From Oligoflexales bacterium (GTDB lineage Bacteria; Myxococcota_A; UBA9042; DTJE01): 37,382 nt of DNA. Positions within the stretch are counted from its first letter, which is position 1, and each line of letters opens with the position of its first letter. The notes beneath the pieces were generated by a model, which was not told the DNA's origin, did no database searches, and saw only the letters and a program-made list of their open reading frames with translations. The stretch is taken from assembly GCA_012840965.1 (NCBI GenBank), contig DUVQ01000072.1, positions 1 to 37,382 of the forward strand, read 5' to 3'. This document shows, one piece after another, positions 8,769 through 28,227 of the stretch. The position numbers were made by a program, and so were the translations under genes.

Positions 8769-8906
8769 GCAACCTCTCTTTAGGTCAACGAGTGTCACCG
8801 CTGGGAATTATGTTGGCCAGTGTTGTCTGTGTCAAGCCATACCCCCTTTGCCCTTCATAACAAAGGGATTTCAACTTCCATCTTGGATTCATCGTGTGAG
8901 GTACTG

Positions 8907-9908
8907 ATGATATTAGGACTGACTGGAAAAAACGCATCTGGTAAGGGTGAGGTCGCAAAAATTTTGATGGCTGGCGGGTTTGAATACTTCAGTCTTTCAG
9001 ATGAAATCAGGTTGGAACTACAGGCGAAAGGCATTCCAGAATCGCGTGACAATCTGATTGAGGCCGGCAGGATGCTGCGCCAAAATGAAGGCCTGGATAG
9101 CTTGGCGCGCAGGGTTACAGGCCGATTTACCGTTGGTTTGAACCAGGTGGTGGACTCCATCCGAAATCCCCACGAGGTACGCTATCTCAGGTCCCTTGGG
9201 TCATTCTTTTTGATTCATGTTGATGCCCCAATCGAAATTCGCTACGAGCGGGCTCAAAAGAGGGCGCGCACTGGCGATCCTGTTGATTTGGAAGCGTTCA
9301 AGGCGGCTGAGGCTAGGGAACTTGCAAGTGATAACCCAGCTGCCCAGCAACTAATCGCAACTATTGAGCTTGCTGATTTTACGGTCACAAATGATGGTGA
9401 TCTGGACACTTTAACTAACAATGTTCGTGCTTTGTTTCAAAAGGCCGTTGCAATGACTCCCAAGATGTCATGGGATGAATATTTCATGAAAATAGCCGAT
9501 GTTGTTGGCACTCGATCCAGCTGTGCAAAGCGACATGTCGCTGCCGTGGTTGTCAAAGATCATCGCATAATTTCCACTGGTTACAACGGAACTCCAAGGG
9601 GCACGCTAAACTGTAATGAAGGTGGTTGTGAGAGGTGCCTTGCTTTGGTGCCGTCAGGGTCAGGCTTGGGCGACTGTCTTTGTTCTCATGCCGAAGAAAA
9701 TGCCATAGTCCAGGCCTCATACCATGGTGTAAGTCTTCGTGGCGCAACGATTTACACCACGTTTCAGCCTTGTATCCTTTGCACCAAAATGATTATCAAT
9801 GCTGGAATTCGCGAAGTAGTTTATCGTTACGCTTACCCGCTACCTGAAAATGCAAGACATCTGTTCAGGGATGCAGGAGTAACAGTACGACAGCACGAGT
9901 CTGGTTGA
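8907..9908 (+). CDS. P-loop kinase-like / dCMP deaminase fusion
   Basis: The C-terminal half is a dCMP deaminase, expected to convert dCMP to dUMP, the substrate for dTMP synthesis. It shows the zinc-ligand motifs CSHAEENA (His261, catalytic Glu263) and PCILC (Cys289, Cys292), plus the Cys-rich insert CNEGGCERC typical of this family. The N-terminal ~190 residues form a P-loop domain (GKNASGKGEV, 7-16) like dephospho-CoA or nucleotide kinases. Such fusions are known in some dCMP deaminases, where the kinase-like part may be regulatory. The start chosen is the ATG after GTGAGG; an upstream GTG at 8820 would add 29 residues of poor quality. The gene is followed by rpoZ and tmk, and the latter acts in the same dTTP pathway. 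Confidence 0.85.
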   Translation: MILGLTGKNASGKGEVAKILMAGGFEYFSLSDEIRLELQAKGIPESRDNLIEAGRMLRQNEGLDSLARRVTGRFTVGLNQVVDSIRNPHEVRYLRSLGSFFLIHVDAPIEIRYERAQKRARTGDPVDLEAFKAAEARELASDNPAAQQLIATIELADFTVTNDGDLDTLTNNVRALFQKAVAMTPKMSWDEYFMKIADVVGTRSSCAKRHVAAVVVKDHRIISTGYNGTPRGTLNCNEGGCERCLALVPSGSGLGDCLCSHAEENAIVQASYHGVSLRGATIYTTFQPCILCTKMIINAGIREVVYRYAYPLPENARHLFRDAGVTVRQHESG

Positions 9909-19210: not shown

Positions 19211-20104
19211 TTATTGTCCTTGCTCGGCGAGCTCAGCTAGCAGCACTCCGACAGCACTTAGCAGTTGTCTTGCTGGTTCGATGGCTTCGCTTTGTTGCAT
19301 ATCAGGATTAACCAGGAATTTCTTTAGATAGAATTGGGCTTCTTTGTAGCGCTGCTTGCGAACAAGCGCTGTTGCAAGGTTATAGGCCGCCATTCCATCA
19401 TCTGGATCTAGTTCAAGACCACGGCTGAGTTCAGAAACCGCTTCATCAAGTTCACCAAGGGTTAGATGCACCAAACCAAGATTATGGTGAATCGCAGCTT
19501 CATCTGGATTGATTTTCGCGCCTTCGACCAAAACGGCTTTGGCAGCTTCCTCGGCTCCTTGGTTCAAATACAACAGACCAAGTGCCGCAAATGCGCGTCC
19601 ATAAAATGGATCCGCCTCAATGGCCTTGCGGTATTGGTCATCTGCGTCTGAAAGCTTGCCCTTCTTTTCAAGGCATTGACCTGCCCAGTAAAAGGCTGCT
19701 GCAAGGTTCGGATTAAATTGCGCGGCCTCTTGGAAGCGGTTTAACGCAGAGTCAATTTCATTACGCGTCAAAGCCAAGCGCCCAAGCTGGAACAAAACAT
19801 CGGCGTTTTTGGCGTTTTGGGCCAGGGCCTGGTTCAAGAATGATTCTGCAGTATCAAGCAGACGCGCCTTTTCAGCATCATCCTTAGCCTGCTTGTCATA
19901 CATGAAAATCATACCAAGCTGAAACAGTGCTTGGTCATTTTTAGGATTCCTGGTAACAGCGGCATTAAATAAGGTTATCGCCTCCTCAAGCTGGTTGGCT
20001 TGATAAGCTTTAATGCCTTTGTTTGTGAGGGCGATTGATTCGGTGTGCGCCTTTGAGCAGCTAACCGCCAAGATCGCCACTAAGGATATTAAGACCGTCC
20101 GCAT
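19211..20104 (-). CDS. TPR lipoprotein (GltE/AglT-like)
   Basis: The 297-residue product begins with a lipoprotein signal ending in AVSC (Cys16), followed by about seven tetratricopeptide repeats (e.g. AAFYWAGQCLEKKGKLSDAD, AIHHNLGLVHLTLGELDEAV). TPR arrays form superhelices that bind partner proteins. It is the last gene of the five-gene leftward cluster, 27 bp after the FHA-TonB-like gene. In Myxococcus a TPR lipoprotein of the gliding cluster (AglT/GltE) sits next to PglI/GltG, so this gene plausibly plays the same outer-membrane role. TPR similarity alone is weak evidence for orthology. The protein is shorter than its myxobacterial counterpart. Confidence 0.8.
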   Translation of the reverse strand: MRTVLISLVAILAVSCSKAHTESIALTNKGIKAYQANQLEEAITLFNAAVTRNPKNDQALFQLGMIFMYDKQAKDDAEKARLLDTAESFLNQALAQNAKNADVLFQLGRLALTRNEIDSALNRFQEAAQFNPNLAAAFYWAGQCLEKKGKLSDADDQYRKAIEADPFYGRAFAALGLLYLNQGAEEAAKAVLVEGAKINPDEAAIHHNLGLVHLTLGELDEAVSELSRGLELDPDDGMAAYNLATALVRKQRYKEAQFYLKKFLVNPDMQQSEAIEPARQLLSAVGVLLAELAEQGQ

Positions 20105-20131
20105 GTCGCCCCCTTTGTTTAAGAGTTGACC

Positions 20132-21883
20132 CTATTTACTGACCTTGAAGATAAACGGATAGGAAACTCTAACAGTTCCACCACCCTTTGGAGATGGGAA
20201 GCGCCAAGACTGAATCCTAGCGACAACGCATTTCTCGACGGCAGGACTGTTCAAAGTTGTCTGACCGATTTTAACGGAAGCAACATTACCAGTGGGCAAA
20301 ATCACCCACTCAGCCCTTATCTGTCCTGCAAGATTGGGATTTCGCTGAACCTCGCTCTGGTAGCAGTACCTGATTTGGTCAAGTTTGGATTGAATGTAGC
20401 GCTGGACGGTCTGGCGGTCCAACTCGCCGTCGACCGAGATTGGGCCAGTCACAACCCTGGGAGCACCTGCACCCTTGAACTTGACTCTGGTGGCCGCGCC
20501 TTCAGCCTCGTCCTTGCTTAGACCAGCGATACCACGAAGGTCAGACGGCCCAAAATCACCACCACCACCCCAGGCGCCTGTTCCAGCAAACCCGCCACCA
20601 CCGGCACCCATGGTCCCACCGAACGCGTCGAGTCCCATTGCCAGTTCAGCATCAAGGCCCCTATCACCGATGGCCCTGATGCCCATGGTACCACCACCTA
20701 GGCCAGAGCCGGCGGCCTCAAGCACGCGGTCCAACATGGCGGTGTTTTCACCCATAACACGAGTCAGCGCTGTGTTGGCAGCCTGACGGTTTTGTTCCTG
20801 TGTTGCAGCCGGGACCAGCTTAGAGGTAAGTTCCTTGTCATTCCTTGGCACTATTGATAGAGCAGTACCTTCTCCAGCACCCTTTTGGGCGGCTTCATCC
20901 AAGCGCTTACGAATCTCTTCCTCTTCGCGTTTCTTATCCTCTTCAATCTTTCGTTCGAGGATCTGAACCTGGACCTTCTTCATGGCTTGAGTATTACGTT
21001 CGTAGGGGTCCCTAGTGACAACAAGCTGATCTTCAGGAACCAACACAATCATCAATGCCAAAAGCATGTGTAAAATCAAGGAGATTAGCAGGTAAATCTG
21101 GTCCTTAAAGTTGTAACGCTTGATCCAGGAGCCTCTGACCTGCTTAGAAACCGGGGAACGACCAGCCAGGAGGGTGAAATCACCAAAATGTACCCTAGCT
21201 TTTAGCTTTTCATCGAGAGTAACGTACTTTCCCTGTGAAATTAGGCCTCTACGCTCCATCTCTGGAAGGCGCACGACCTTGTCATCCACCAAAAACTCGG
21301 CGTCAACCTTGGCTGTTTTAACATCAAGCAGGAAATTATCGCCACTGGGGGTCGCAATCGTTAGTAATGGAATACCTAAAGCGCTTTCAGGTACGAAAAG
21401 GTCGGCCTTTGCATCTTCGCCGATGGTAACCGAAGCTCCAGCAGGAAAGATTGTCCAATCAAGAACACGATCACCCCAAAGAAGCTTGGCTTCAAAGCCA
21501 TACTTGCCAGATTTAAGCGCCTTATCAAGGTTGCTCGACAAGAAGGCGCCTTCACCCAAGGCAGCGGCGGCCATCTCGAACTTGATTCTGACCTTGACAT
21601 CCTCACCAAAAGTCAGGACGTCATCAGGGCGCAGCATCGTAGGCTCGGTCAGCCTTTCCCCGTTTATCAGGGTCTCAACACCTTCACCGGCGTCTTTTAA
21701 GCGTACCTGACCAGAATCCAAAACCTCAATCAGGGCGTGTTCCCTGGCAACTCCAGGACCGTCAACCTCAAGATGATTCGACTTACCCTTGCCGATTCGT
21801 ATCAGTTTTCTGGTAGTGGTCAGAATCTCTTTGTTTTGGTCCTGAAAATCAGTAAACCGAATCTCCAACGATTCTCGATGCAT
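20132..21883 (-). CDS. FHA domain / AgmX-PglI TonB-like protein (GltG-like)
   Basis: This 583-residue protein has an N-terminal FHA-like domain (KLIRIGKGKSNHLEVDGPGVAREHALIEV within about 1-105; phosphothreonine binding) and a second FHA-like region to about 235. One transmembrane helix follows near 258-280, then a charged coiled coil (about 290-330), a Gly-rich stretch (390-450), and a C-terminal AgmX/PglI domain (about 483-580; RYCYQSEVQRNPNLAGQI, WRFPSP). The last fold is TonB-C-like and occurs in gliding-motility proteins PglI/GltG and AgmX/GltJ of Myxococcus. Energy transfer across the periplasm is the inferred role. It lies between TPR genes and a small secreted protein in one operon. 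AglRQS-type motor genes are not in the window. Confidence 0.85.
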   Translation of the reverse strand: MHRESLEIRFTDFQDQNKEILTTTRKLIRIGKGKSNHLEVDGPGVAREHALIEVLDSGQVRLKDAGEGVETLINGERLTEPTMLRPDDVLTFGEDVKVRIKFEMAAAALGEGAFLSSNLDKALKSGKYGFEAKLLWGDRVLDWTIFPAGASVTIGEDAKADLFVPESALGIPLLTIATPSGDNFLLDVKTAKVDAEFLVDDKVVRLPEMERRGLISQGKYVTLDEKLKARVHFGDFTLLAGRSPVSKQVRGSWIKRYNFKDQIYLLISLILHMLLALMIVLVPEDQLVVTRDPYERNTQAMKKVQVQILERKIEEDKKREEEEIRKRLDEAAQKGAGEGTALSIVPRNDKELTSKLVPAATQEQNRQAANTALTRVMGENTAMLDRVLEAAGSGLGGGTMGIRAIGDRGLDAELAMGLDAFGGTMGAGGGGFAGTGAWGGGGDFGPSDLRGIAGLSKDEAEGAATRVKFKGAGAPRVVTGPISVDGELDRQTVQRYIQSKLDQIRYCYQSEVQRNPNLAGQIRAEWVILPTGNVASVKIGQTTLNSPAVEKCVVARIQSWRFPSPKGGGTVRVSYPFIFKVSK

Positions 21884-21902
21884 TTCGCCCCCTGAACTTA
21901 GA

Positions 21903-22163
21903 TTAGAGGTCTTCGGCAGACTTCAGAATTTCGTCTACAAAGTCCTTTCGCACTTTAATCGAGCTAGCGTCCTTATCAATGAGTAGCGCTTCCGCTATCC
22001 CCTGATTTGGTCTCATGATCTCGCCCTCAAGGACATCGCCCTCGAAGTCCATTTGCTTGACGTTGGGTTCTCCGGCTCCCCCTGGTTCGGATTCTGCCAA
22101 GGCAGGCAAGGCAAGCAGGATTGCGAAAAGGCCCGCTATCAACTTAATCAGTACGCTTCTCAT
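21903..22163 (-). CDS. Small secreted protein of the Glt-like cluster
   Basis: This 86-residue protein has a signal peptide cleaved after LPALA (about residue 27). A short domain follows with MDFEGDVLEGEIMRP and a C-terminal VRKDFVDEILKSAEDL. From memory, small exported proteins with this VEGE / LRxDFxxEhhKSxDDh pattern recur next to AgmX/PglI proteins in deltaproteobacteria, but I cannot name the family. The ATG at 22163 follows GTGAGG at good spacing; a GTG at 22175 is the alternative. It is 19 bp upstream of the FHA-TonB-like gene. The gap before it carries two hairpins. Confidence 0.7.
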   Translation of the reverse strand: MRSVLIKLIAGLFAILLALPALAESEPGGAGEPNVKQMDFEGDVLEGEIMRPNQGIAEALLIDKDASSIKVRKDFVDEILKSAEDL

Positions 22164-22180
22164 CGTACACCTCACGCCGA

Positions 22181-22196
22181 AGGGATCCTAATCCCT
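22181..22196 (-). other. Small intergenic palindrome
   Basis: AGGGAT (22181-22186) and ATCCCT (22191-22196) form a perfect 6-bp stem around a four-base loop. It lies just ahead of the small secreted-protein gene and 34 bp from a second hairpin. Confidence 0.4.
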
Positions 22197-22230
22197 AAAA
22201 GGCTAAATTTGCAAGCGGCTATCAGCCACA

Positions 22231-22260
22231 ATGGTTGATTACTTAAATATAACCAACCAT
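22231..22260 (-). other. Intergenic mRNA hairpin between TPR and small gene
   Basis: In the leftward transcript ATGGTTGGTTA pairs with TAATCAACCAT over 11 positions around an 8-base loop. The single non-Watson-Crick position is a G:U wobble in this strand (an A:C mismatch on the other), which favours an RNA-level structure. There is no T-run after it, so it is unlikely to be a full terminator; RNA processing or stability is possible. Confidence 0.5.
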
Positions 22261-22279
22261 AAACAACGAAACACCTATG

Positions 22280-25200
22280 CTATTCAGAGCCTTTGGAGGC
22301 ACCATCTCCCTTGGCTCCGTCATCCGACTTATCGGCCTCTGGAGTAGGTTCGGGCGCCTTTTCTTGCTCAGCAGCAACCTCCTTCAGGACTTCAATGGTG
22401 GTCACAATACCGGAAATTCGCATTTTGACCGCCTTCGCTCTAGGATCTTGAGGATTAACCATCTGCTCAAACTTGCGGCATTCGGTTAAAGCCTTTTCAT
22501 GCTGCCCTAGATTTTCCTGATATACAAGACACAGATTGAAATGGGGATCCGCATAATTGGGGTCCTTTGCCAGTTCGGTCAGCAGCTTGATAGCGCCGTC
22601 AGCGTCATCGGCACCACGCTTAGCAACAGCCAAGCCAAGGGTGGCTTCGCGATGGCCTGGCTTTATCTGCAGAGCCTTGTCAAACTGGGCAGAAGCCGTT
22701 GCGAAGTCCATATATCCCAAGGTAACGGAGGCTAAGTTGAATCTGGCATCAAAGTTTTTCGGGTCGTCCCTGACAGCCTTTTCAAAAATCTGAACGGCTT
22801 GCCTGACTTCACCCATCTTCAGAAATATGATTCCGAGGATATTTTGGATATCACCGTTGGTTTCATAAATGCTGACGGCGTTCCTACCAACCAAGATACC
22901 AACGTCGAGCAGGCCCATTTCCAGATAGGAAGCAGCCAAAACCATGTATGAATCCATCGAGTCTGGATCCGATACAAGAGCCTTTCTGGCCAAGTTTATC
23001 GCCTCAACAAAATCACGCTTCTCAAACGCCTTGGCTGCATAGTAGTTGTTTGCACCTGAGTCAGCTGGGTCAATCTCAAGGGCCTTGGCAAACTGCGCTA
23101 CTGCGGCGGCTTCATTGCCTTGCGCCAAGTCAACATAGCCCAACCTGGAGATTGCAGCTCTAAAGTCTGGGCGCATAGCGATGGCCTTCTCATACAAGGT
23201 TCTAGCCTGAGCCACGTCGCCTTGTGCCATCAGCAAAGAAGCCATGTTGTAGATCGCCTCGGCAGTTGGATTCTCTTTTGACGCGGCGTCTTTGATCCTT
23301 TGCTCAACACCAGCCTGGGTCCAGTTTGGGGCCTCAAGGCCTTCACCTTCCACAACAAGGGTGGCCCTGCCAGTACCTAAAGAATAAGCGCCAGGGGTCG
23401 GTCGAATGTCAGGTAACGCACGATACTCTGGGTCCAAGGTCAACAAGGCCTCTTCAGCAGCTGCAGAGTACTCGTTGTACCATTTAAGCTCACGGGCAAC
23501 CTCAACGCACTGGCGGTAGGCTTCCTTGGCTCTTTCAAACAAGGGAGTCGCCCTGTCAGCCATACCCTGACGATAAATTGCCCTGGCATCTGGGTTCAAT
23601 CCACGAGGAGTTGGCGATTCTTCAATTGCGACCGCCAGTTCCTGTAGGCCCTGTCCCTTTCTGGTAGTTGCAGCGATTGTCCAGTTGGGCTGGCCAAAAC
23701 CTTCGACAACCGTAAATGTTTCCAAAGCCTTGGTAACCAACTCACCCTTTTGAGCTATACCAGCAATCAAAACCTTCTCAGGAAGCTTCAGTTCAACAGC
23801 CCGCATTTCGGCCATCTGGGCTTCACCTTCCATAAACTGGGCTTCTGCAGCAGCGCTAAGCCCAACAGAGGTTACCTTTCCTTTTTCCTCGTCCGTCAGG
23901 CCGGCATACGCAGCAACGGTCTTGTTGTACCATTCCCTGGCCTTGCGTGCGCCACCACGAGTTTTTTCTTGGGTGCGGGCAATCTGGAGGTGGGTCTGAA
24001 GATACAGGTCCAGGCCACCGCCCTTGCCATACCTAGTCAGCCATCTTTCGAATTCCTTAATGGCCTGATCATACTTGCCCTGCTTCTCGTATGTAGTTGC
24101 GATATTGAAGGCAACGCTTGCGACGTGCTCAGATTTCGGGAAAAGCTGCAGGTACTTGCGAAGGTCCGTAATCGCCTTGTCGTGCTCACCCAATCCACTG
24201 CGGAAAGTGGTGGCAAATCGCAAGGCCTCTTCGGTAAGTTCGTGTTTTGGGTGCAGACCAACAAAAACTTCGTAGATTCGAGCTGCCTCAGAGTAAACGG
24301 CCAGCCGTCGATAGGTGTCCGCGATGTTGTAAAGGGCTCGTGCGGCCAATGGAGAAGTTGGCATTTCGTTTACCAATTGTCCGTTTGCCTCAAGGGAGCG
24401 TTCAACCAAACGAGCCTTGAAGAATTTGTCTGCCGCATGGTACAAAGAACCGTCTTTCAGCTTGGTATTCGGGAACTTACGGATATAGTCCAAGAAACAC
24501 TCGGCTGACTTCGTAAATCGCCCCTGCTGCTCGTATTCGAAGCACAGGTTGTAGTCCTTGCGCTCAATGATTTCCTGGACGATGCGTGGGACATCATCCT
24601 GCATCAGTTTTGGGTTGGCCTTGATTTCTTCTGCGGCTTCGTTTAGAGCACTGATGTTCCTGGAAAGCATCAAAGCAGACAATAAAAGCCTTGCCGCATC
24701 AGGTGCATTGACGTGATCGGGGTATTTGTTGATCAGGTTTCTAAACCCATTCGCAGCTTCATTGTAGTGGTTGTACTGGTACTTAACCATTGAGGCCGCA
24801 AACTGTGCTTCCACCACGTCGGGAGCATCTGGAGTGGCCATTTTCAGATAGCGTTCTGAGGCTGCAATCAACTTCTTTTCAAACTCTGGAAGTTCCTTCT
24901 CTTCAAGGTCTGTAGAGTCGTCGGACTTGGTTTTTTGCTTTGAGACATCCAAAAGTGCGTAGTAGCAACGAACGGCGCCGTGGGCCGACTGCAGGGCCAC
25001 CTCTTGGTCAGGATTCAACTCGGAAACAATGGAGTAGCGCTCGGCAGCCTCCTGATACTTTTCCAACTGTTCCAGCAAAATGGCGTAGTTCAATGTCATT
25101 GCAGCGTAGTCTTTGGAATCTGGGAACAATCGCAGATACTCGTTATACAAGTGATGGGTAAATTCCATCGTGGATTGTTCCTTGGTAACGCCAACTTCCT

Positions 25201-26515
25201 TGTGATAGTTGGTCACGATGACGCGGACCACTTGCTCAGAAGTGGCCAGCTCAGGCTGATAAAACTCGGGGGGTGTCTTATCCCTGAACATATCCAGCAA
25301 ACCGATCAAGCGCTTTGTTTCCTCGACAACTGGCTTTTTTGGACCAAGTCTGTATGCGTTATCAAGGATGTAGCGCTGAAACCCAATGATTCTATAGGCA
25401 TCGGACGCGTCCTTGAATTCGATAATGATCTTCTTGAACAGAACGGTCGACTTTCTGTATTCACCCTGGCTGGCATAACCTTCCGCCAAGCGAATAGCCA
25501 AGTCCAGGTATCCAGTGGCAGAAATTGCCTTGAAAACCTTGATGGCGTTTTCGGGGCTTCCAACCTGAGAATAAACCATAACAAGGTCACGTTGGGCCTC
25601 TCGCAGCAGTTGCGTGCCGTAGCCAATCGCTTGGGCGCCTTCACCACGGGTGTAATCAATGACCTTTAGGAACTGATTCATGGCCTGCTCGTGCATGCCC
25701 ATGTTGTAGTAGCACCATCCCTTTTTATATATGGCCAGACCATATGCACCGGAATTTGGGAAGTTTTCGACTTCCGTGTAGATCTGTTCGGCATCTTCCA
25801 TCGCGCCGTTATTGAAATAGTATTCAGCAATGTTCAACAAGGCGTCTGGGACAAATCGGCTGTCGGACCTTTCACGGACTATCCTGGTAAAGTAAGGGAA
25901 GGCCTTGTGCTGCATGTCCATCTGGACCAAAGCAAAGCCAAGATAGTACAAAACAGAGTCAAGGTTCGGATAATCAGGGAAACGGTCGACGATCATCATA
26001 TAGACGTTGGCCGCCTCTTCTTGCCAATGCTGCCGTTCCTGCAAGTACGCGGCCTGCTGAGCCTCAGCTGCGGCGACCCCGGCTTCATCGTTGGCCAACT
26101 GGGCGGCTCTTAGCTGTTCAAAAAGCTCGTCACCATAGGCCTTGTTGAAGAAGTTCTCTGACTTATCCCAGTAGACCTTGGCTAGCCTGTTGAGGTACTC
26201 GGCCTTGATTTCATCGTCATCGTCCGCCTGATCAATCATCAGGTTCAGGGTCGAGATGAGCTCCTCAAGCTTCTCGTCGGCCATTTGTTCGACTCGGGAG
26301 GCCGTATGCTTTACCCCCATGGGGGCACCCTTACGGGCAGTCACGCCCTCAAGGGGCATGGCAGAAGCAGCCCCACCGGAGCTTTCAGGTAAATCAAAAG
26401 TTTTGACAGCCGTCCCTTGATCCTTTTTGGCTTTGGCCTTTTGAGCGAAAGCTACGGGTGAAACAAGGGAAATGCAGCCAACCAAAAGCATCGCACGAAC
26501 GATACGCGTCGTCAT
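22280..26515 (-). CDS. Giant periplasmic TPR protein (GltD/AgmU-like)
   Basis: This 1411-residue protein is exported (signal ending SPVAFA, about residue 24) and made almost wholly of helical TPR-type repeats. An N-terminal section has TPRs of the YbgF/outer-membrane-assembly kind (SVLYYLGFALVQMDMQHKAF, GAMEDAEQIYTEVENFPNSG). A long middle section of degenerate repeats follows, then about eight regular C-terminal TPRs (e.g. AISRLGYVDLAQGNEAAA, NILGIIFLKMGEVRQAV) and an acidic/Lys tail (PTPEADKSDDGAKGDG). The size and location next to a PglI-like gene match AgmU/GltD, a large TPR protein of the Myxococcus gliding complex. It is 42 bp downstream of another TPR gene. Function is inferred only from architecture. 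Confidence 0.8.
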   Translation of the reverse strand: MTTRIVRAMLLVGCISLVSPVAFAQKAKAKKDQGTAVKTFDLPESSGGAASAMPLEGVTARKGAPMGVKHTASRVEQMADEKLEELISTLNLMIDQADDDDEIKAEYLNRLAKVYWDKSENFFNKAYGDELFEQLRAAQLANDEAGVAAAEAQQAAYLQERQHWQEEAANVYMMIVDRFPDYPNLDSVLYYLGFALVQMDMQHKAFPYFTRIVRERSDSRFVPDALLNIAEYYFNNGAMEDAEQIYTEVENFPNSGAYGLAIYKKGWCYYNMGMHEQAMNQFLKVIDYTRGEGAQAIGYGTQLLREAQRDLVMVYSQVGSPENAIKVFKAISATGYLDLAIRLAEGYASQGEYRKSTVLFKKIIIEFKDASDAYRIIGFQRYILDNAYRLGPKKPVVEETKRLIGLLDMFRDKTPPEFYQPELATSEQVVRVIVTNYHKEVGVTKEQSTMEFTHHLYNEYLRLFPDSKDYAAMTLNYAILLEQLEKYQEAAERYSIVSELNPDQEVALQSAHGAVRCYYALLDVSKQKTKSDDSTDLEEKELPEFEKKLIAASERYLKMATPDAPDVVEAQFAASMVKYQYNHYNEAANGFRNLINKYPDHVNAPDAARLLLSALMLSRNISALNEAAEEIKANPKLMQDDVPRIVQEIIERKDYNLCFEYEQQGRFTKSAECFLDYIRKFPNTKLKDGSLYHAADKFFKARLVERSLEANGQLVNEMPTSPLAARALYNIADTYRRLAVYSEAARIYEVFVGLHPKHELTEEALRFATTFRSGLGEHDKAITDLRKYLQLFPKSEHVASVAFNIATTYEKQGKYDQAIKEFERWLTRYGKGGGLDLYLQTHLQIARTQEKTRGGARKAREWYNKTVAAYAGLTDEEKGKVTSVGLSAAAEAQFMEGEAQMAEMRAVELKLPEKVLIAGIAQKGELVTKALETFTVVEGFGQPNWTIAATTRKGQGLQELAVAIEESPTPRGLNPDARAIYRQGMADRATPLFERAKEAYRQCVEVARELKWYNEYSAAAEEALLTLDPEYRALPDIRPTPGAYSLGTGRATLVVEGEGLEAPNWTQAGVEQRIKDAASKENPTAEAIYNMASLLMAQGDVAQARTLYEKAIAMRPDFRAAISRLGYVDLAQGNEAAAVAQFAKALEIDPADSGANNYYAAKAFEKRDFVEAINLARKALVSDPDSMDSYMVLAASYLEMGLLDVGILVGRNAVSIYETNGDIQNILGIIFLKMGEVRQAVQIFEKAVRDDPKNFDARFNLASVTLGYMDFATASAQFDKALQIKPGHREATLGLAVAKRGADDADGAIKLLTELAKDPNYADPHFNLCLVYQENLGQHEKALTECRKFEQMVNPQDPRAKAVKMRISGIVTTIEVLKEVAAEQEKAPEPTPEADKSDDGAKGDGASKGSE

Positions 26516-26557
26516 GCTATTCCTCCAACACGATAAACAACAACAGTCGTCCGTGTG

Positions 26558-28165
26558 TTACTTGGTACCACACACAGACTTGAGCGGGTAAAAATAGCTA
26601 CCCAATTCGTCTTTCCAATATTCGCCATCAAATGGCCACAAGACGTGCTCTTTATCAACCTGGAATTCAGCAGTAGGCTTTTGCGCCCCTGAAATCTCGA
26701 TAATCTGCTCCTGGCGAAATCGCTCTGTCAGGATACCCTTTTGGGCATTTACAGTTTCGAAACGAACTGCCAGGGCCTGCTGCAACAGGCCGCGAAGCTC
26801 GCGATTGACTCGCGACAGTCGCTCACGCGCAAGCTTTCCGGCCTCACCCATGGTCAGCGCACGATATGCCACTAGGTCTGGCAAGAGGTAATCCACCATT
26901 GGTCTTGCCACTGGCTGATTTTGCAACTCTTCGATTCTTTTCATCTCTTCGCTGATAGCAATCGCAAAACCAAACAAGCGCCGCAATTTGGCATCAGCAA
27001 GAGCAGCGTTAAATATCTTTTTGATCTTCAAAGAGTAGCCCTCACCCTTACCCTGGCGTGAAATGGATGCCAGATAGGTGTAGAAGTCAGACGGGTCCGT
27101 GTAGGTTTCCAAAACTATGCGAAGTTCCTTGGAGATCTCGTAGTACTCTTTGTAGAACGGATCGATGGTCTCCAATGCTTCTTCATACAGGCAGTTTCTA
27201 AAGAAAATAACCGCTTTAAGAACGTTTGCCTCTGGGTAATACTCTTCTTCGAAGTATGGTGAGCCAACGGTCAGCAGGTTTCCAAGGGCTCTTTCATAGT
27301 TTTCAGTCTGGTAAAAAGCCCAAGCCCTTTCAAACAGGCTGTCCAACCACATATCGGAAGTATCAGGAATCATGCCGTAATTTTTGATGGCTTCATGAAA
27401 CTTCGCGGGATCGTGCTGGCCCCCTCCATAGTAAACGCGAGCCAAGGCAATGCGCGTCATAATCTGCAGGCGTTCCGATTCCTTGGACAGTTTTCCCTTG
27501 AATCTACCAAGCAGCTTGCTAAACGTTTCCGCGGCGGCATCAGTGTTATTTTGGCGGACTTGAACGACGCCCTTCAGGTAAAGGGCCTTATTGAACATTT
27601 CAGGATTACTTTCACCGACTTTAGACAGTGATTCCAATGCCTTGGGGAGGTTACCCTCGTAGTAGTAGAACTGGCCGACATAAAAGGAGATTTCTTCAAC
27701 CAAATCGGCCGGGTACATTTCCACCGGATAGTAGGCCATCCTGAACAGGGTGTTGGTTTCACCAGGCAGTTGTCTGTGAATCTTGGCAAGCCAAGGTAGC
27801 GCCGCAGCATAGTGGGGGCTAGAGGGGCCAAACTCGGCTATCCGATCAAAGTATCCAAAGGCTGACACGTAGAATTTTTGCTCATACAGCGCCACGCCCA
27901 TCTCAAACAAGGCATCCTGATAGTAGGCATAGGCCTCATCACCTTCGGCCAGCACCTTGTGGTAAACAAGTGCCGCATCGTAATACCGCCCCTGTCTGCT
28001 AAGCCGCTTGCCCTCCCCCAGGACCAAGTCGAAGGCGCTGGTGGACTGGCTTACAGCTGGTGCGGCAGCCTCGGGTGCCCCTTCGTCTTGGGCCAAGGCT
28101 ACAGCACTAGAGCTGGCAACGGCAACGACCGCTGCCAGTAGAAAAAACTTCGCAAATTCCCGCAT
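26558..28165 (-). CDS. Periplasmic TPR protein, first gene of Glt-like operon
   Basis: The 535-residue protein has an N-terminal signal ending in AVALA (about residue 25), a short Ala/Glu linker, then TPR-like repeats (YDAALVYHKVLAEG, FYVSAFGYFDRIAEFGP, GNLPKALESLSKVGESN). A long helical region reaches the C-terminus, where VLWPFDGEYWKDELGSYFYP forms a conserved-looking cap. AAGGGG precedes the ATG, and a good promoter lies 35 bp upstream (28200-28227). It opens the leftward five-gene cluster and probably works with the giant TPR protein as a periplasmic scaffold. I see no enzymatic motif. Confidence 0.8.
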   Translation of the reverse strand: MREFAKFFLLAAVVAVASSSAVALAQDEGAPEAAAPAVSQSTSAFDLVLGEGKRLSRQGRYYDAALVYHKVLAEGDEAYAYYQDALFEMGVALYEQKFYVSAFGYFDRIAEFGPSSPHYAAALPWLAKIHRQLPGETNTLFRMAYYPVEMYPADLVEEISFYVGQFYYYEGNLPKALESLSKVGESNPEMFNKALYLKGVVQVRQNNTDAAAETFSKLLGRFKGKLSKESERLQIMTRIALARVYYGGGQHDPAKFHEAIKNYGMIPDTSDMWLDSLFERAWAFYQTENYERALGNLLTVGSPYFEEEYYPEANVLKAVIFFRNCLYEEALETIDPFYKEYYEISKELRIVLETYTDPSDFYTYLASISRQGKGEGYSLKIKKIFNAALADAKLRRLFGFAIAISEEMKRIEELQNQPVARPMVDYLLPDLVAYRALTMGEAGKLARERLSRVNRELRGLLQQALAVRFETVNAQKGILTERFRQEQIIEISGAQKPTAEFQVDKEHVLWPFDGEYWKDELGSYFYPLKSVCGTK

Positions 28166-28199: not shown

Positions 28200-28227
28200 A
28201 TTATTGCAGAAACGCTCGCGGTGTCAA
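28200..28227 (-). promoter_or_regulatory. Predicted promoter of the Glt-like operon
   Basis: On the minus strand, TTGACA (28227-28222), a 16-bp spacer and AATAAT (28205-28200) lie about 35 bp upstream of the first TPR gene. This would drive the five genes from 28165 to 19211, which have gaps of only 19 to 116 bp. Confidence 0.6.

Follow-up and report, generated by a model that had tools for sequence, protein, structure and literature searches.

The window, that is, the whole stretch of 37,382 nucleotides that we analysed, is contig C3 of a 3.09-Mb Myxococcota MAG that is about 96% complete. Between positions 28165 and 19211 it carries five minus-strand open reading frames forming a compact operon, with intergenic gaps of 42, 104, 19 and 27 bp, in the order gltC, gltD-gltE fusion, gltF (also cglF), gltG and a gene for a TPR lipoprotein that we call X. 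It is bounded by two plus-strand genes, asnS upstream and pyrC downstream. The original prediction had described five leftward genes encoding an exported TPR protein, a giant TPR protein, a small exported protein, an FHA-TM-coiled coil-AgmX/PglI protein and a TPR lipoprotein; all five reading frames, at the coordinates below, and all five descriptions were confirmed. The features are as follows.

28200..28227, minus strand: promoter-like TTGACA-16-AATAAT with 11/12 consensus matches and an extended -10 TG, 35 bp 5' of the gltC ATG; a consensus match only
26558..28165, minus strand: gltC homologue (NF033756), 535 aa, signal peptide, TPR
22280..26515, minus strand: gltD-gltE fusion gene, 1411 aa, N-terminal signal peptide, matched co-linearly by the profiles of stand-alone GltD and GltE
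23351..26473, minus strand: GltD part, aa 15-1055, 960 bits with a profile made from stand-alone GltD only
23309..23434, minus strand: helix-free linker between the GltD and GltE parts, aa 1028-1069 (AlphaFold2)
22340..23329, minus strand: GltE part, aa 1063-1392, a TPR solenoid without a lipoprotein signal of its own, 271 bits with a profile made from stand-alone GltE only
21903..22175, minus strand: gltF (cglF) homologue (NF033764), 90 aa from a GTG, with an ATG at codon 5, signal peptide
20132..21883, minus strand: gltG (pglI) homologue (NF033760), 583 aa
21605..21802, minus strand: FHA domain of GltG, aa 28-93 (PF00498, 1.3e-12)
21038..21097, minus strand: transmembrane segment of GltG, aa 263-282, followed by a charged coiled coil
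20144..20422, minus strand: AgmX/PglI (TonB-like) C-terminal domain of GltG (NF033768, 5.5e-33, over the cut-off)
19211..20104, minus strand: TPR lipoprotein X, 297 aa, lipid-anchor Cys16 (X profile, 186.6 bits)

Elsewhere in the window, positions 8820-9908 encode a protein that matches both the anti-phage dCTP deaminase model (NF041025, 129 bits, below the cut-off) and ComEB deaminase.

The exported TPR protein, which had been taken for an extra gene, is GltC. It matched NF033756 with an E value of 1.3e-76 and 258.6 bits over model positions 122-619 of 622 (equivalog cut-off 450), and a gltC orthologue heads the operon in 20 relatives. Comparison of GltC with solved structures returned nothing beyond generic TPR. 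The small exported protein matched the CglF model NF033764 (E 7e-9, 35.6 bits; cut-off 90), CglF being the same protein as GltF (PMC4488436), and an orthologue of it stands at the equivalent position in relatives. The assignment of the 583-aa protein to PglI/GltG held up, since it combines the FHA domain, a single transmembrane segment, the C-terminal tail scoring over its cut-off and a match to NF033760 with an E value of 4.6e-67 and 227 bits (cut-off 650). As GltC and GltG both fall below their equivalog cut-offs, they are relatives of the gliding proteins rather than gliding equivalogs. In the FHA domain of this GltG, AREH takes the place of the SRxH motif, whose serine most relatives, including the sister genome, have kept; judged from this substitution, phosphothreonine binding may be weakened.

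The closest GltC among the best 80 of 379 loci is 75% identical and comes from isolate D137_maxbin.042; the nearest named relatives are Myxococcota MAGs, and the best 80 of the 379 loci include none from Myxococcus. Comparison of the relatives' loci showed that C-D-E-F-G(-X) is the normal order across the phylum, and C-D-E-F-G-X is common to the relatives; the cultured Lujinxingia vulgaris TMQ2 (L172) is one of those that have it. Because the identical order recurs across the phylum, the operon is far beyond chance, and the view that it had a different order and an additional TPR gene does not stand. What was found is neither generic TPR similarity alone nor a C-terminus lacking the AgmX/PglI domain, but specific matches to NF033756, NF033760 and NF033764 together with the NF033768 tail, which bears out the proposed relation to the Myxococcus Glt machine. 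On its sequence, the operon is a member of the Glt/Nfs family of Agl-driven envelope machines.

The gltD-gltE fusion and lipoprotein X

The giant TPR protein had been identified as AgmU/GltD, which is correct for aa 15-1055 and incomplete, since the same chain also carries GltE. In agreement with the stand-alone GltE profile, the GltE model NF033758 scored 113 bits at aa 1069-1352 of the 1411-aa protein. Relatives from other families and classes have two separate adjacent genes, a gltD of 1042-1280 aa and a gltE of 371-545 aa, whose products correspond in alignments to residues 11-1061 and 1068-1392 of the fused protein, respectively; GltD and GltE of M. xanthus have 1191 and 471 aa (PMC3169522). 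An AlphaFold2 model of aa 901-1411, with a mean pLDDT of 87, consists of two helical parts and has no helix in fragment residues 128-169.

The fused form was found in all genomes of the window's family with a complete gene, in the order-mate family f2 and at loci L111, L112 and L119, and in family f3 (L076) D is followed by a C-terminus that resembles E more weakly. On the GltC tree of 67 loci, 13 of them fused, the fused state changes three times, although a single origin of the fusion may still apply. Several stand-alone GltEs have lipoprotein-like N-termini, and there is no internal one within the fusion. We infer that in this lineage a linker of about 42 residues connects GltE to GltD and that GltE no longer has a lipid anchor of its own. 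The fusion provides natural evidence that GltD and GltE are neighbours within the gliding/sporulation machine.

The fifth gene had been read as AglT/GltE, an assignment that we ruled out. An X profile trained without the window's own family (f1) scored 186.6 bits on its product, against 82.6 bits for the stand-alone GltE profile, and stand-alone GltE genes lie before gltF, not after gltG. X is a distinct conserved lipoprotein, with Cys16 invariant in 14 orthologues. It directly follows gltG in 47 of the 53 loci that extend far enough, or in about 48 of the 53 when L102 is counted; the miss at L102 is an artefact of the ORF start, because X was found there by a separate comparison. The Glt gene table of PMC3169522 lists no gene fitting the description of X. 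We propose that X is a further member of the complex on its outer-membrane side, and its presence at the equivalent site 3' of gltG in about nine-tenths of the examined loci makes it a concrete candidate component.

Profile searches for the AgmU/GltD, AglT/GltE and PglI/GltG families supported the kinship with Glt and the GltG assignment, spoke against the AglT call, and turned the AgmU protein into a GltD-GltE fusion. Judged by these matches, the original prediction was right about the family and wrong in three gene assignments, those of genes 1, 2 and 5.

Motor, barrels and a second cluster elsewhere in the genome

The motor proteins had been reported as missing from the window, which is true of the window itself, but an AglRQS-like cassette is present on contig C12 (L007, 7078-10917). 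There, a second GltG-like gene is followed by one MotA/ExbB gene and two ExbD genes, with consecutive matches to PF01618 (7e-28) and PF02472 (3.1e-21 and 9.1e-14). Ten relatives from the window's family have an AglR-like protein of 69-85% identity, and the cassette is syntenic in most family genomes whose contig covers the region. The GltG-like protein directly upstream of this AglR-Q-S-like cassette has extra N-terminal transmembrane segments. On contig C42 (L023, 10793-11563), we also observed a lipoprotein-like protein whose AgmX/PglI tail and linker closely resemble those of the C12 GltG-like protein; it is apparently a truncated duplicate of the latter.

On contig C214 (L022, 9741-12844), a GltJ with zinc ribbon, GYF domain and tail (PF13717, 6.4e-14; PF14237, 2.3e-15; NF033761, 120.7 bits, below the cut-off of 450) is followed by two OMP_myx_plus barrels. 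A third such barrel lies beside a second, diverged Glt-like cluster on the minus strand of contig C16 (L087, 3255-13584). The two barrels on C214 are GltA/B-like, and each of the three may correspond to A, B or H; the genome-wide search recovered both an AglRQS-like motor and barrels of this kind. The C16 cluster encodes a 796-aa putative lipoprotein, the OMP_myx_plus barrel, GltC, GltD, a separate GltE lipoprotein and a GltF-like 84-aa protein. The 796-aa protein appears vWA-like by eye only and has no Pfam or NCBIfam match; the C16 GltC is 24% identical to that of the window. Altogether, the genome has one AglRQS-like motor, and both the GltC-D-E-F set and GltG occur twice in it; the window operon may therefore pair with the C12 motor or with another ExbB/ExbD pair.

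MglA and the possible function of the operon

MglA is the Ras-like switch of gliding. The query sequence used to search for it gave matches of up to 83% identity in relatives, which serve as its positive control. No MglA was found in the window's own genome, a MAG about 96% complete, at E 1e-3, and the sister genomes are also without it. At 1e-25, MglA was present in only 1 of 52 genomes of the window's class versus 199 of 232 other genomes of the phylum (200 of 284 in total); the Fisher test of class against rest on these counts ignores shared ancestry. Since 51 of the 52 sampled class genomes have GltC, GltC and MglA are decoupled. Two candidates were rejected: an Arf-profile match (L096) is ObgE, and L095 lies within an 849-aa frame, far longer than MglA. 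The reverse pattern, MglA without a GltC match, was seen across whole genomes of families f17, f21, f37 and f39. The GltJ homologue on C214 is kept in a genome without detectable MglA.

The five genes probably code for the trans-envelope transducer of a machine of the Agl-Glt/Nfs type, and proton-driven envelope transport is the function that we favour. By analogy with M. xanthus, we infer that an AglRQS-like proton-driven motor would engage GltG, which would have a cytoplasmic FHA domain, one transmembrane segment and a periplasmic TonB-like tail; in M. xanthus, AglR binds both GltG and NfsG (PMC3858216). Movement would then be relayed by the periplasmic proteins GltC and GltD-GltE, together with GltF, to barrels and lipoproteins at the outer membrane, with X as a presumed member on the outer-membrane side; GltC of M. 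xanthus binds the GltA and GltB barrels (PMC4488436). A surface component, be it a polymer, an adhesin or a lipoprotein, would in this way be dragged or distributed along the cell, as spore-coat polymer is moved by Agl-Nfs, and one Agl motor serves both Glt and Nfs in M. xanthus (PMC3858216).

Given the absence of MglA from this genome and from 51 of the 52 class genomes, canonical MglA-steered gliding is unlikely, although another control of gliding may exist. A true gliding machine equal to the M. xanthus Agl-Glt, with some other switch replacing MglA, is to our mind distinctly improbable. It is true that the genome carries most of the structural parts (C, D, E, F, G, J, A/B-like barrels and R/Q/S), that possession of AglRQS together with GltA-G has been speculated to make any bacterium a potential glider (PMC3169522), and that the 796-aa putative lipoprotein by the second cluster could, by eye only, take the role of CglB. 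Yet MglA is missing class-wide, none of GltC, GltG, GltJ and CglF reaches its NCBIfam gliding-equivalog cut-off, and M. xanthus itself has non-gliding Glt paralogue clusters in nfs, G4 and G5. These paralogues and the absence of MglA led us to rank transport or coat deployment above gliding: a reversible, polarity-controlled engine of the M. xanthus type is unlikely without MglA, the likelier task is constitutive surface transport or the deployment of a coat or adhesin, and the original job was probably not ordinary gliding.

An Nfs-like machine that moves coat polymer in sporulation or another envelope remodelling seems to us a rather unlikely, if somewhat better, alternative. The genes nfsA-H are homologous to gltA-H, form a single cluster and have no counterparts of I, J and K (PMC3858216), and the window's C-D-E-F-G is contiguous as in nfs, whereas glt of M. 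xanthus is split over two clusters. However, contiguity is the phylum-wide state, and the gene order therefore does not favour Nfs; moreover, GltJ is present in the genome and no sporulation is known in this uncultured group. That the operon might be a generic TPR scaffold unlinked to the Glt machine can hardly be credited. TPR proteins do cross-match many profiles, but the matches to GltC, GltF, GltG and the AgmX/PglI tail are specific and lie in order, TPR is absent from GltF, and the order is conserved across the phylum, so this reading is already refuted.

Returning to the transducer of an envelope transport machine, we tentatively offer a broader possibility, about which we remain doubtful: C-D-E-F-G-X might be an ancestral, MglA-independent envelope transport machine of the Myxococcota, in which X would be an overlooked constant component, and a whole class, with GltE fused onto GltD, might employ it to carry out some surface transport rather than gliding. 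In a class that has the transducer and a motor but lacks detectable MglA, the force machine and the polarity switch are uncoupled, and this retention bears on the evolution of gliding from an older envelope transporter.

Comparison with known systems

The Agl-Glt machine of M. xanthus (GltA-K and AglRQS) resembles the present system in having homologues of C, D, E, F and G in the window, while J, A/B-like barrels and R/Q/S are found on other contigs of the genome. In contrast to Agl-Glt, D and E are fused in the window, C adjoins D where the two are split in M. xanthus, the conserved lipoprotein X follows G, the genome itself is without MglA, and the scores stay below the gliding-equivalog cut-offs.

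The Nfs system of M. xanthus (nfsA-H, the G3 cluster) shares the contiguous C-D-E-F-G arrangement, and its precedent that a single Agl motor may drive several transducers (PMC3858216) is a further likeness. Unlike Nfs, the window operon contains no A, B or H, has D fused to E, and carries X.

The core complex of Group B, which comprises GltC, D, E, G and AglRQS in gamma- and deltaproteobacteria, differs from the window in that the latter also has GltF, has D and E fused and has its motor genes outside the operon. The window nevertheless shares C, D, E and G with this core complex (PMC3169522), and it is like both Group B and the M. xanthus clusters G4, G5 and M2, with G4 and G5 compared by description, in that its function may lie outside gliding (PMC3169522).
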